A stretch of DNA of 64,000 nucleotides from Diphasiastrum complanatum (lineage: Eukaryota > Streptophyta > Lycopodiopsida > Lycopodiales > Lycopodiaceae): assembly GCA_029204225.1 (NCBI GenBank), contig CM055092.1, forward strand, positions 67,650,810-67,714,809. The letters run 5' to 3'. The position numbers were made by a program, and so were the translations under genes. Under the pieces are notes generated by a model, which was not told the DNA's origin, searched no databases, and saw only the letters and a list, made by a program, of their open reading frames with translations. Of the stretch, positions 47,462 through 58,877 are shown piece after piece (positions within the stretch are counted from its first letter, which is position 1; each line of letters begins with the position of its first letter).

Positions 47462-47803
47462 ATGTCATCGACGATGTCATCATCATCTAATAGCGATTCA
47501 TCTCATGATCGCAACAACAGGTATATATTGTTGTTGATATTGACATCAATTGCACTTTATTTCTTATTTGAATATGAGTGTATAATTTTTCTTGCAAATT
47601 TATTCTTACAATAACATTTGAATGGAATTTTGAATTCCAGGAAAATTATCGTACCTCCACGTGATTTAGAGAAAGAAAAAAGAATTGAGCTCTATCACAG
47701 AAAAAAGGAGCAATCAAGACTAAAGTACAATGAACAACTATTGACTAGTTCATCTTCAAGCTCTTCCATCAGTCGACGTAGACCACCTATTGATCCATCA
47801 CAT
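47462..47803 (+). CDS. First two predicted exons of the CACTA gene (Ser/Arg-rich N-terminus)
   Basis: Exon 1 (47,462-47,520) starts MSSTMSSSSNSDSSHDRNN and ends at an AG/GTATAT donor. Exon 2 (47,641-47,803) follows a TTCCAG acceptor in phase (R, then KIIVPPRDLEKEKRIELYHR). It continues through a Ser-run and SRRRPPIDPSH to a CAT/GTATGT donor. Phase agreement across the intron supports a real gene. Low-complexity charged N-termini are common in transposase genes. I do not recognise a domain, and the link to the following exon is inferred from order and strand only. Confidence 0.5.
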
Positions 47804-48017
47804 GTATGTATATTGATTTATGTCATAGTTTTTTTATTTGTAATAGTGATGTAATCCGATTTGCTCTTTGGATATAGTATATTGCTCTTTGGAAAGCCAA
47901 GACACCACTCCATCACAAATGAAGGTTGAAATGCACTAAATGTACAAAGACTATTTTTTCAATTTTTGTCACATGTTACAATTCGTCACATGTTAGAATT
48001 TGTCAATTTTCACTTGA

Positions 48018-48200
48018 ATGACACTGAAAGAGTTTGTGCAATTTGCAATTGGATTATTGGACCAGTTTCAACTAGAATATGATGAGAGGATACCATGTAC
48101 ATGCACACAATGCAAAGGCCTTAGGATTCGGACAAGGAGGATTGTCAACGATCATATTTGGGCCAATGGAGTGCACACAGAGAATTTAAGAGTACGAGAG
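48018..48200 (+). CDS. Transposase-associated zinc domain exon (CACTA type)
   Basis: The sequence MTLKEFVQFAIGLLDQF then ERIPCTCTQCKGLR then IVNDHIWANGVHTEN matches the plant Transpos_assoc domain. That domain carries a CPCxxC-type Cys motif followed by a His-containing V..H...GF stretch, and usually lies N-terminal to Tnp2 in En/Spm transposases. Visible here are three cysteines (CTCTQC) and the downstream His. The N-terminal edge of the domain is shorter than usual. A stop codon lies just upstream in frame, so the exon may begin at the ATG or the acceptor may be just after the stop. The exon ends at a GAG/GTAAAC donor in phase 0. Confidence 0.75.
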
Positions 48201-48312
48201 GTAAACTCTTTAAAGTGTTTTTCGAAAATGTTTTAATCTTTGACCCTTATGACACTTCAAGTATAGTTTGGCCAATAAATATTGAGCGGTAGGATGAGTT
48301 CCATGATACTTT

Positions 48313-48487
48313 GAAGTTAATCTCTCACTTGCTTCTAAAAGGAAAAATCCAAATAGAATATTCAGATGAAGTTAATCTCTCACTTGCTTCTAAAAGAAAA
48401 TATCCAAATAGAATGATTAGATGAAGTTAATCTCTCACTTGCTTCTAAAAGAAAAAATCCAAATAGAATGATTAGATGTAGTTAATC
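48313..48487 (+). repeat. Tandem repeat, three 55-bp copies
   Basis: The unit starts GAAGTTAATCTCTCACTTGC at 48,313, 48,368 and 48,423, and the copies are nearly identical. It lies in the intron between the transposase-associated exon and the SET exon. Confidence 0.93.
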
Positions 48488-48530
48488 TTGATTTCCATAT
48501 TCAATCACCCATAATAGACTCATTCACGTC

Positions 48531-56480: not shown

Positions 56481-57130
56481 AAATTGTCAACATTTCCTAG
56501 CTAGTTTGAGGCCTAAATTGGCTAAAATTGTAAATAGTTTTGGTTCTGGAGTTTCACACGTGTGAACCAGGCCACAATGTTTTTATTTACTGTATTTTTT
56601 CAGTATGATGAAGTGTCAAACTTCATACCCTTCAAAATGAGACCATTTTGATGTATTTTGGTCATATAAGCCATTTTTAGCTATTTTTCCTATATAGGGA
56701 ATATCTAGGGTCAAGTACCTTCTAGAGAGAGGAGAGAGAGTCATCTTCCTCATCCATAAATAGTAGGGAAGTCGTGGAGAACAGGTTGGAGAAACCTTTT
56801 GTATGCTTCATTGAGATCAATAGATCATTGTCATTGTTTCTTCCTCCACTGAGAGCATTGTTGTGTGTATTGTCTTCAAGCTATTGTGTATGATCTTAGG
56901 TGCTTTCCAAAAGTGATAGGCTGATGTATTATGGACTGTATAATGCTATTTTGGGCCGCACTTGATGTTTATGGAAGTTTCCATTTGTGATAAATGCTTT
57001 TTGATCAAGTTCTTTGCATTCTAGGTAGCATAGAATGTGTTGCCAATTCCTAGCTTATGTAGTTTGGAGTGCAAGCATTCAAGCCAATGATCTTGGAGTT
57101 TAGATCCACTTAGGATCTGTATTTTTCACA
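56476..57130 (+). repeat. 3' LTR of the young Copia element
   Basis: 655 bp, differing from the 5' LTR at one position that I can see. The gag-pol stop codon lies at its first bases (56,478-56,480). It is followed by the ATATG duplication and then the second half of the transposase exon. Confidence 0.97.
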
Positions 57131-57437
57131 ATATGTATGAGAACAATATTGCAGTTAGACACAATGAACAAGATGAGGAGGCACTTTTGTCTAAAGAAGA
57201 AAGAAAATTGCGAGAAGAATCAAAGACCGCATTGTATCCTGGAGCAAAGACATCTCGTTTGGCGACTTCTCTACTTCTATTAAATCTTCAAGCCAAATAT
57301 AGATGGAGTGACCAAAGCCTCACATCATTATTTGAGTAGATTTTTTCATCTACTTGTCATTTTTGCTTTGAAACAAAATTTACAATTTGGACATCGAGTG
57401 ATATTTTTTTTACAATGACTTCTTTTGTCATGTACAG

Positions 57438-58178
57438 ACTATTGAAAAACAAAATTCTCCCAGAAGGGAATGTCATGCCTGAGACAAGAGATGAGGCACG
57501 AAAGATGTTGTCTAACATCGGGATGGACTACAAGCAATATCATGCATGTCCAAAAGATTGTATTTTATATCGAGGAAGGTACGAATCACTCAAGAAATGT
57601 CCCATTTGTGATACTCCTCGATATAGAGATGATTTGCAAGGGGCAACCATTCCGTGCAAAGTTTTACAACATTTTCCAATAATATCACGATTGTAACATT
57701 TATTTTGTTGTAAATCTCTTGCACAACTTATGGACTGGCATGCACACCATACCTCTACGGATGGGATGATGAGGGTACCTTTAGATTCACCTGCATGGAA
57801 ACACATCAACAAAGAGTATCCAAGCTTTGCCAATGAGTCAAGAAATGTGAGATTTGGTCTTGCAACAGATGGTGTGAACCCCTTTTGGTGTATGAGCAAC
57901 TACGTGGTCCATTTGGCCTGTTTGCTTGGTAAATTATAATATTTCTCCTTGGTTGAGTACAAAAAAGGGACACATTATATTGGCACTTTTAATTCTTGTC
58001 CAACACAAGGTTAAGAACATGGATGTGTATCTTGAGCCGCTTATTGACGAGTTGGAAGATTTGTGGAAGGGGATAAAAGCATATGACATTTCGTGCCCCT
58101 TACATGAGAGGGAGTTTACACTACATGCCATTGTAATGTGGACAATGCATGACTATCCAGGATTAGGTGAATGCTCAG
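57438..58178 (+). pseudogene. Tnp2 transposase core, first part (CACTA), broken
   Basis: This exon follows a TGTACAG acceptor that restores phase from the previous exon (E, then LLKNKILPEGNVMP). It carries hallmark Tnp2 sequence: HACPKDCILYRGRYESLKKC, then CPICDTPRYRDD, KVLQHFPIISRL, RNVRFGLATDGVNPF, and DVYLEPLIDELEDLW. A TAA at about 57,694 stands where the family has Gln (RLQ). This is a single CAA-to-TAA change, after which the frame stays open (SLAQLMDWHAHH). A one-base frameshift occurs near 57,895. The exon ends CTCAG/GTAATC and joins in phase to the exon at 58,325. Tnp2 would bind subterminal repeats and cut the ends. This copy is dead as encoded. Confidence 0.9.
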
Positions 58179-58324
58179 GTAATCATTCAAACAATGTTTA
58201 TCTTGTGTACATAGGAGTTTGTTTACAGTTACATACAACTAGTAATTCTTGACATTTACATGATATACTACAATGGCTTGAATTATTCTTTGACATATAC
58301 TTTTTTTAATAGTGATTTGGGCAG

Positions 58325-58877
58325 GCTTTCAAACAGCTGGAAAAAATGCTTGTTTTAAGTTTGGGCCAAATCTTGTGGGAAGATACTCTTTTAGTCTAAA
58401 AAAAGTGGTTTATGAAAATCATTGTAAATACTTGCATGAAGGCCATCCATTCAGAGACACTCATAGAAGAGGTTTTGGAGGAGAGTTGAGAGAGAGATGC
58501 CTCCAAAGAGGATGTCCGTGAAAGATTGGCGAATACCATGGGAGGAATCTCAAGCAAAGCCAATTGATGGTATGAAAAGATTATCTATATTTCATAGTTT
58601 GGTATATTGGAATAACCTTTTGATTAATCACCTACTTGTTCCCATGCACATATTTAAAAATGTGGGTGAATCTATTTGGAAACACTTGATTGGTGAAAAA
58701 GATACCATTGTTGCAAGACACGATTTAAGAGAATCAAACACCAAAAAAGAATATTGGATAAAGGATGGTGAAGATCATGCTCCAAAAACAATCATTGTCG
58801 GGTATTTACATGTACTTGGTGCATACTACATCCATCTGCTCCACTATTGTGACATGATGAGGAAGCCGAAGAGGTAA
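58325..58877 (+). pseudogene. Tnp2 transposase, second part, frameshifted and truncated
   Basis: After a TTGGGCAG acceptor in matching phase, the sequence reads GFQTAGKNACFKFGPN, then VVYENHCKYLHEGHPFRD. A frameshift near 58,490 leads into MPPKRMSVKDWRIPWEES, GMKRLSIFHSLVYW and NHLLVPMHIFKNVGESIW. These match the mid-part of Tnp2 proteins, including the conserved D/H-M-x-K-N-V segment. A stop occurs at 58,875. The C-terminal third of the usual protein was not recognised in the following 800 bp, so the gene appears truncated. Confidence 0.88.

Follow-up and report, generated by a model that had tools for sequence, protein, structure and literature searches.

We found a SET-domain exon inside what appears to be a decayed DNA transposon, in a window of 64,000 nucleotides from the genome of Diphasiastrum complanatum (contig C1, positions 67650810-67714809; the window is the whole stretch of DNA analysed, and coordinates without a contig name are positions within it). 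The element is very probably a copy of a CACTA/EnSpm-like family with a transposase of the Tnp2 type, and the SET exon a regular and ancient part of the gene of that family. This degree of confidence covers the exon order, the occurrence of the same order elsewhere, purifying selection and phase-compatible splice sites. On one strand, exons 1 and 2, an exon for a transposase-associated domain (TAP), the SET exon and the Tnp2 exons follow one another between two clusters of palindromic repeats. The parts of this gene are given below, with splice sites ranked by a weight matrix built on approximate base frequencies (a slash marks the splice point).

47462..47520, + strand: probable exon 1 of the element gene; donor in phase 2, in the top 0.66% of GT sites
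47641..47803, + strand: probable exon 2; acceptor in phase 2, in the top 0.2% of AG sites, and donor in phase 0
48018..48200, + strand: TAP exon (PF13963), with a tentative 5' boundary; donor GAG/GT, phase 0
49062-50099, + strand: SET open frame, 345 codons from stop to stop
49080..50099, + strand: SET exon, 339 codons, with its own stop codon and a phase-0 acceptor after 49079
49635..50045, + strand: SET core motifs (GLGLF at 49635, YIDG at 49848, YINSS at 49890, TNC at 49923, GEEVFIKY at 50022)
50317..50404, + strand: degenerate, incomplete duplicate of the SET 3' end, immediately ahead of Tnp2 exon A
50422..50700, + strand: start of Tnp2 exon A up to the Copia insertion that interrupts it, with a phase-0 acceptor and a nonsense codon at 50575-50577
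50701..57130, + strand: nested Copia long terminal repeat (LTR) retrotransposon of 6.4 kb with an open gag-pol frame of 1322 amino acids
57136..57335, + strand: remainder of Tnp2 exon A; the frame is continuous across the empty site
57438..58178, + strand: Tnp2 exon B (PF02992); one nonsense codon (57694-57696) and one frameshift (about 57883-57895)
58325..58790, + strand: Tnp2 exon C (end of PF02992); one frameshift (about 58490-58500)

The original prediction of a SET-like frame of about 340 codons, lying on the same strand between the TAP exon and Tnp2, is borne out. The whole frame matches the SET family PF00856 with E 3.3e-6 and 27.9 bits, above the Pfam gathering score of 22.4, and the SET domain alone reaches 29.3 bits against the same cut-off, which settles the doubt whether SET homology can be detected by a hidden Markov model. 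Given the local base composition, 345 open codons would arise by chance with a probability of 1.7e-11, and the codon periodicity at 49081-50096 exceeds that of 1000 out of 1000 shuffles. All 12 aligned copies match PF00856 at E 0.01, 11 of them coming from loci picked by the same model. The YID, NSS and TNC motifs are kept in 26 of 26 SET copies, as is the catalytic-type tyrosine of GEExFI.Y (Tyr 157 of the aligned domain). The GxG motif, assigned by eye, is complete in the window, and its first and second glycines are present in 18/23 and 23/24 copies, respectively. On the transposase side, Tnp2 (PF02992) is matched with E 7e-29 and 101 bits against a cut-off of 28.6, plus two adjoining frames; the profile is spread over the three frames as positions 1-48, 47-145 and 137-193, the last one weak (E 0.0088). 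No further transposase domain was recognised in the frames read downstream of exon C. The TAP domain is a partial match to PF13963 (E 4.6e-6) whose 27.2 bits are slightly below the cut-off of 27.7. Scans for SET in viral and bacterial genome contigs, and for one Tnp2 piece and profile A1 in viral contigs, yielded nothing useful.

We then investigated the copies in the genome (1.74 Gb in 5176 contigs, of which C1 to C23 reach tens of Mb, while the higher-numbered contigs with a noted length have about 100 kb or less). A search for the SET family gave at least 146 matches, 150 of 875 candidates having been scored. The window's own SET is absent from the listed SET matches, so these counts are lower bounds. 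The listed matches mix element copies with some share of host genes, and 138 of them (the 8 strongest set aside) touch every one of C1 to C23. Pieces of exon A or Tnp2 lie downstream of SET on the same strand in 21 of the 22 other loci picked by SET (20 + 2), L026 being the exception, and TAP lies upstream of SET in 11 of the 22. Because these loci were chosen by SET, 8 further loci (L041-L048) were chosen by Tnp2 from 150 listed Tnp2 matches. SET is present in half of them (L041, L042, L047 and L048), and its exon carries stops and frame changes in all four. By coordinates alone, at least 12 of the 150 listed Tnp2 matches have a listed SET within 6 kb, and in at least 8 of these it lies 1.4-2.0 kb upstream on the same strand. 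The proposal that the SET protein is transposon-borne is thus upheld by family copies with SET at the same place; the opposite expectation, that other copies lack SET, holds for some Tnp2 copies only. A cluster of 16 listed SET and 22 listed Tnp2 matches, with some pairs oppositely oriented, occupies 2 Mb of C1 (48.4-50.4 Mb).

A Tnp2 tree for 29 loci, several inner branches of which are weakly supported, places the SET-bearing loci in three subfamilies. The third of these contains L039 and L040 (one sequence on two contigs, and a near-identical pair like L009 and L010), whose SET is 58% identical to that of the window. L033-L038, which are among the 8 strongest Tnp2 matches, represent distant families with Tnp2 pieces about 45-56% identical, and split off as an outgroup with a support of 1.000. 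No SET was seen in about 1.5 kb of their flanks, and in L035 and L038 a weak TAP match (E 0.002) is followed by the transposase with no SET in between. On the other hand, the SET-less L043, L044 and L046 nest singly among the SET-bearing subfamilies. One gain of SET followed by later deletions fits best, and our preferred reading includes a capture of SET long ago, at the root of the lineage.

A different kind of capture, in which this one copy took up a host gene fragment in the style of Pack-CACTA elements and the frame stayed open by chance or youth, is extremely improbable. Capture of host DNA is known for plant CACTA elements (PMC8616336), and the SET of the window is open while the SETs of its four siblings are broken. 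However, this SET recurs in the same position in diverged copies spread over many contigs, it is still recognisable in the third subfamily at the identity given above for L039, its splice sites and stop codon are conserved, and it bears the mark of strong purifying selection. Pack-CACTA captures would have few copies, a host match and no selection on the element side, whereas this SET is multi-copy and selected. Capture of a host gene fragment was one of the origins considered in the original prediction; a recent capture by this copy is unsupported, since SET is common to three diverged subfamilies and has evolved under purifying selection.

Selection was estimated from the ratio of nonsynonymous to synonymous substitution rates (dN/dS) by the Nei-Gojobori method, with codons mapped to the window frame by tblastn; pairs beyond the correction were dropped, and values with dS above 1 are partly saturated. 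For the SET domain, the window against 25 copies gives a median of 0.11 (dS 1.2), compared to 1.71 and 1.49 in the shifted frames, with differences of 570/496/1548 by codon position. The N-terminal part of SET gives 0.35 in 20 copies (0.69 and 0.95 in the shifted frames). The Tnp2 pieces of the same copies have medians of 0.07 (11 pairs, from the 11 loci whose Tnp2B pieces are comparable with the window; dS 2.6, saturated) and 0.16 (13 pairs), so the constraint on the SET domain has been about as strong as that on the transposase. This comparison of SET and Tnp2 among copies had been suggested together with the original prediction. Picking loci by SET score favours intact SETs, and the lesion densities in the fetched copies (9 in 3705 codons for the SET domain, 37 in 4449 for Tnp2) are biased for that reason and were not used as evidence.

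The splice sites of TAP, SET and Tnp2 are compatible in phase. The TAP donor at 48200 is in the top 1.0% of GT sites, the SET acceptor after TTTTGCAG at 49079 in the top 0.09% of AG sites, and the Tnp2 exon A acceptor after 50421 in the top 1.2%. All three are in phase 0, so that TAP could be joined either to Tnp2 or to SET, an exon that ends in a stop codon of its own. In alignments judged by eye, with the window included, the phase-0 TAP donor GAG/GT is kept in 10/12 rows and the phase-0 AG of the SET acceptor in 11/13, and the SET stop lies within 7 codons of the aligned end in 21/23; the exon A acceptor AG/GA is kept in 19/20 other copies, again by eye. A counterpart of exon 2 with 89% identity is found upstream of TAP in L047. 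Selection across copies, the shared place, and the mostly conserved splice sites and stop together indicate that SET is an old, selected exon of a CACTA-like lineage. This retention by selection makes the SET gene look like a functional component of the transposon, as opposed to cargo carried by accident. The TAP-SET intron also contains two GA microsatellites of 48 and 38 units.

The copy in the window is dead and unremarkable, and its SET is still open by chance. The two nonsense codons and two frameshifts claimed for Tnp2 were located by following the Tnp2 frames (positions in the list above), and the 6.4-kb insertion proved to be the Copia element. Its LTRs (50701-51355 and 56476-57130) differ by 1 mismatch in 655, and a 5-bp target duplication, ATATG, is found at 50696-50700 and 57131-57135; this insertion is a very young element. 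Exon A is uninterrupted by it in L041 and L042. A stop at 57337-57339 was considered as a third nonsense codon, but it falls inside a plausible 102-nt GT-AG intron (the donor scores poorly) and was left out of the lesion count.

The contrast between an intact SET and a broken Tnp2 was originally read as a hint of selection on SET or as chance, and it might even denote a domesticated SET gene, selected in this very copy. This is highly unlikely. Zero lesions in 339 SET codons stand against 4 in 562 Tnp2 codons, and the dN/dS of the SET domain is 0.37 against L041 and 0.41 against L042 (both p=0.04). In addition, the decayed second copy of the SET 3' end (local alignment score of 72, with a maximum of 48 in 200 shuffles) implies enough time for stops to appear in an unconstrained frame, the probability of no stop being 0.004 at half its divergence. 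However, the split of lesions has P=0.15 and is not significant; together with the broken SETs of the four Tnp2-picked siblings, this deprives the contrast of its value as a sign of selection. Against L041, the nearest fetched relative (dS 0.07), dN/dS is 0.69 for the whole SET, 1.08 for its N-terminal part and 0.98 for Tnp2, and the TAP exon of the window seems damaged or incomplete at its 5' end. The stretch holding the 3' relic aligns in L041 and L042 too, indicating that the elapsed time predates the window copy, and the relic by itself gives no sign of selection (12 differences in 58 bases, 5/6/1 by codon position). Thus, selection seems to have acted mainly on the source lineage, with recent constraint weak or absent.

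Several points weigh against an old SET exon in a CACTA-like gene. The reading is built from DNA sequence. Of the 25 other copies behind the SET domain median, 22 had been chosen for their SET score, and two copies, L009 and L010, are near-identical. The recent constraint on the SET domain, as seen against L041, is weak (the p value is uncorrected). The PF00856 match covers only positions 43-104 of the 105 in the profile, the GxG part having been assigned by eye. At the ends, neither CACTA..TAGTG termini nor a 3-bp target duplication were found, the latter having been looked for solely in combination with CACTA-like ends, nor was the left edge found. No good acceptor was found for the TAP exon. 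Two further points, the SET-less loci and a changed SET motif, come with rival explanations of their own and are treated in the next two paragraphs. On the 5' side of the TAP exon there are an in-frame TGA at 48015 and a 17-bp tandem duplication at 47968-48005. Attempts to join the TAP exon in frame to exon 2 failed: the four longer phase-0 acceptors hit stops and just three short ones are open, and the acceptors in that stretch all score 1 or less.

No SET was seen within 2.4-3 kb upstream of Tnp2 in L043, L044, L045 and L046. This, and the stop codon that SET has of its own, would also suit an independent mobile or host gene that sits in a transposase intron and travels with the element while playing no part in transposition. 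We consider this unlikely. Conservation of the SET acceptor and the TAP donor, which share one phase, speaks against it, as does selection on the SET domain of about the strength seen for Tnp2, and the single nesting of L043, L044 and L046 in SET-bearing subfamilies is what deletions would give.

The other point concerns catalysis. The NHxC (pseudo-knot) motif is replaced in 26 of 26 copies, which read NSS instead of NHS, followed by I in 24, V in 1 and Y in 1. A host SET at L007 (labelled SUVH-like in this analysis) reads NHSC, GNIARFINHSCSPN, where most element copies read GNIAAYINSSIGHPSLTNC. The motif is thus altered and the alteration itself conserved, which makes the enzyme activity of SET uncertain. 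The element SET may be a pseudo-methyltransferase that serves as a binding or dimerising module, for example in a DNA-binding protein for palindromic subterminal repeats. In another plant CACTA element, alternative splicing of the large gene gives smaller transcripts that are taken to encode such a subterminal-repeat-binding protein (PMC2613891). This alternative, which rivals only the enzymatic half of our reading, is a real possibility, albeit not the one we favour: a YxG-like motif and GEExxxxY with its tyrosine are missing from few copies, if any, and the majority also have GxG. PRDM-type SET domains are without the His, so its loss alone is compatible with activity. A single-sequence structure prediction for SET had a mean predicted local distance difference test (pLDDT) score of 31. 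Sequence and profile searches of the PDB matched no SET structure (the odd matches are non-SET proteins, taken as chance), and a search of NCBIfam gave no match.

The element extends beyond 47462-58877. The palindrome GTGGATNATCCACGC has 25 matches with at most 2 mismatches in the window, where 0.18 are expected and 100 shuffles gave a maximum of 4. These matches are confined to two flanking clusters, which we take as putative subterminal repeats at both ends of the element.

44853..46263, no strand: left cluster of palindromic GTGGATWATCCACGC repeats (candidate subterminal), 14 of 25 matches
60350..60641, no strand: right cluster of palindromic repeats (candidate subterminal), 11 of 25 matches
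60688..60724, no strand: right edge of the repeat; genome matches stop at 60688 or 60710-60724

In a genome search with the right end (40 matches scored of 2847 candidates), 38 of the 40 long matches stop at this edge (query position 389 or 411-425). The two that run past it come from the window's own sequence and from a stretch of C1300 that is 99% identical. When the edge is read inward from 60710, its first letters are CACAG, for which no partner was found on the left side. As a clean CACTA terminal repeat, the best near-end pair was rejected: it has 3 mismatches in 14 and no target duplication, and is no better than random segment pairs. Scanning viral and bacterial contigs with the palindrome motif gave nothing useful. 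Copies of the right-end sequence also occur at C4:17265327 and C2:55187002, about 0.9 kb upstream of the SET matches C4:17266616 and C2:55185880; shared ends and nested or abutting elements are candidate readings for these.

Other features of the window include a possible further gene of the element on the opposite strand.

45601..45888, - strand: Ser/Arg-rich open frame of 96 codons near the left end, probably element-borne

This frame belongs to no Pfam family and has counterparts in L043 (93% identical) and L016 (30%). Outside the element gene, an open frame of 564 codons at 33686-35380 (+ strand) encodes one C2H2 zinc finger (PF13912, 25.4 bits with a cut-off of 25) and a C-terminal DLHL, and is likely to be a host transcription factor gene. 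A GA microsatellite of about 313 units lies at 61843-62471.

As to the function of the SET exon, both products of the gene would come from one promoter. Joining of TAP to SET would yield a TAP-SET protein of about 400 amino acids, and splicing that skips SET and joins TAP to Tnp2 would yield the transposase. The TAP domain or a partner would recruit the SET protein to the ends of its own element, and there it would modify or bind chromatin, through methylation or, should it lack activity, as a binding module. The effect would be that the element stays expressed or that its own copy number is controlled. We put this chromatin mechanism forward tentatively, as somewhat short of an even chance when taken as a whole. 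The fullest statement would be that a plant CACTA-type lineage makes, from one gene and by alternative splicing, a TAP-Tnp2 transposase and a TAP-SET chromatin factor for its own palindromic ends, that is, a self-encoded histone-modifying or histone-binding system with a conserved NSS, selected over three subfamilies; this is a little more doubtful still. Plants silence transposons via histone and DNA methylation, and a long-selected SET gene in a DNA transposon family would make it directly testable whether elements write or block their own chromatin marks.

The HarbingerS and SET-bearing MuDR families of Phytophthora were reportedly described by Kojima and Jurka (Repbase Reports 2014). These oomycete families carry SET histone methyltransferase genes (PMC12730594) and are likewise DNA transposons that incorporated a SET gene. 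However, they belong to other transposase superfamilies and another kingdom, and the relevant passage of that source names neither EnSpm/CACTA nor plants for SET, although its 'such as' wording allows for further cases. The same text describes fungal DNA transposons, including EnSpm, with TET/JBP, so that a chromatin- or DNA-modifying enzyme occurs in several unrelated lineages; the enzyme there is a DNA dioxygenase, not SET, and the hosts are fungi. No SET gene in a CACTA/EnSpm element was seen among the open-licence papers searched, which included PMC12477816 and PMC4158355 and had Repbase reports outside their scope; this is weak evidence of absence. As SET is known in Harbinger and MuDR and none was found for CACTA/EnSpm, we count SET in a Tnp2/CACTA lineage as a new variation on a known theme. 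It would be a plant case independent of the oomycete Harbinger and MuDR elements, and here SET and the transposase could in addition use one and the same splice donor.

Compared with plant CACTA/EnSpm elements, the element described here differs in that a search for CACTA terminal repeats found none. In soybean, the subterminal repeats of a CACTA element are palindromic, and a protein encoded by the element is believed to bind them (PMC2613891). In comparison with En/Spm and Tgmt* of soybean, the second product of En/Spm is TNPA, a DNA-binding protein, whereas here it would be a SET-domain protein. VANC of the Arabidopsis VANDAL elements (MuDR) is not known to have a SET domain. VANC is an element-encoded anti-silencing factor that acts at the element's own copies, its targets often being tandem repeats (PMC5735166). 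TNPA of En/Spm and VANC of VANDAL are the nearest working models for TAP-SET.

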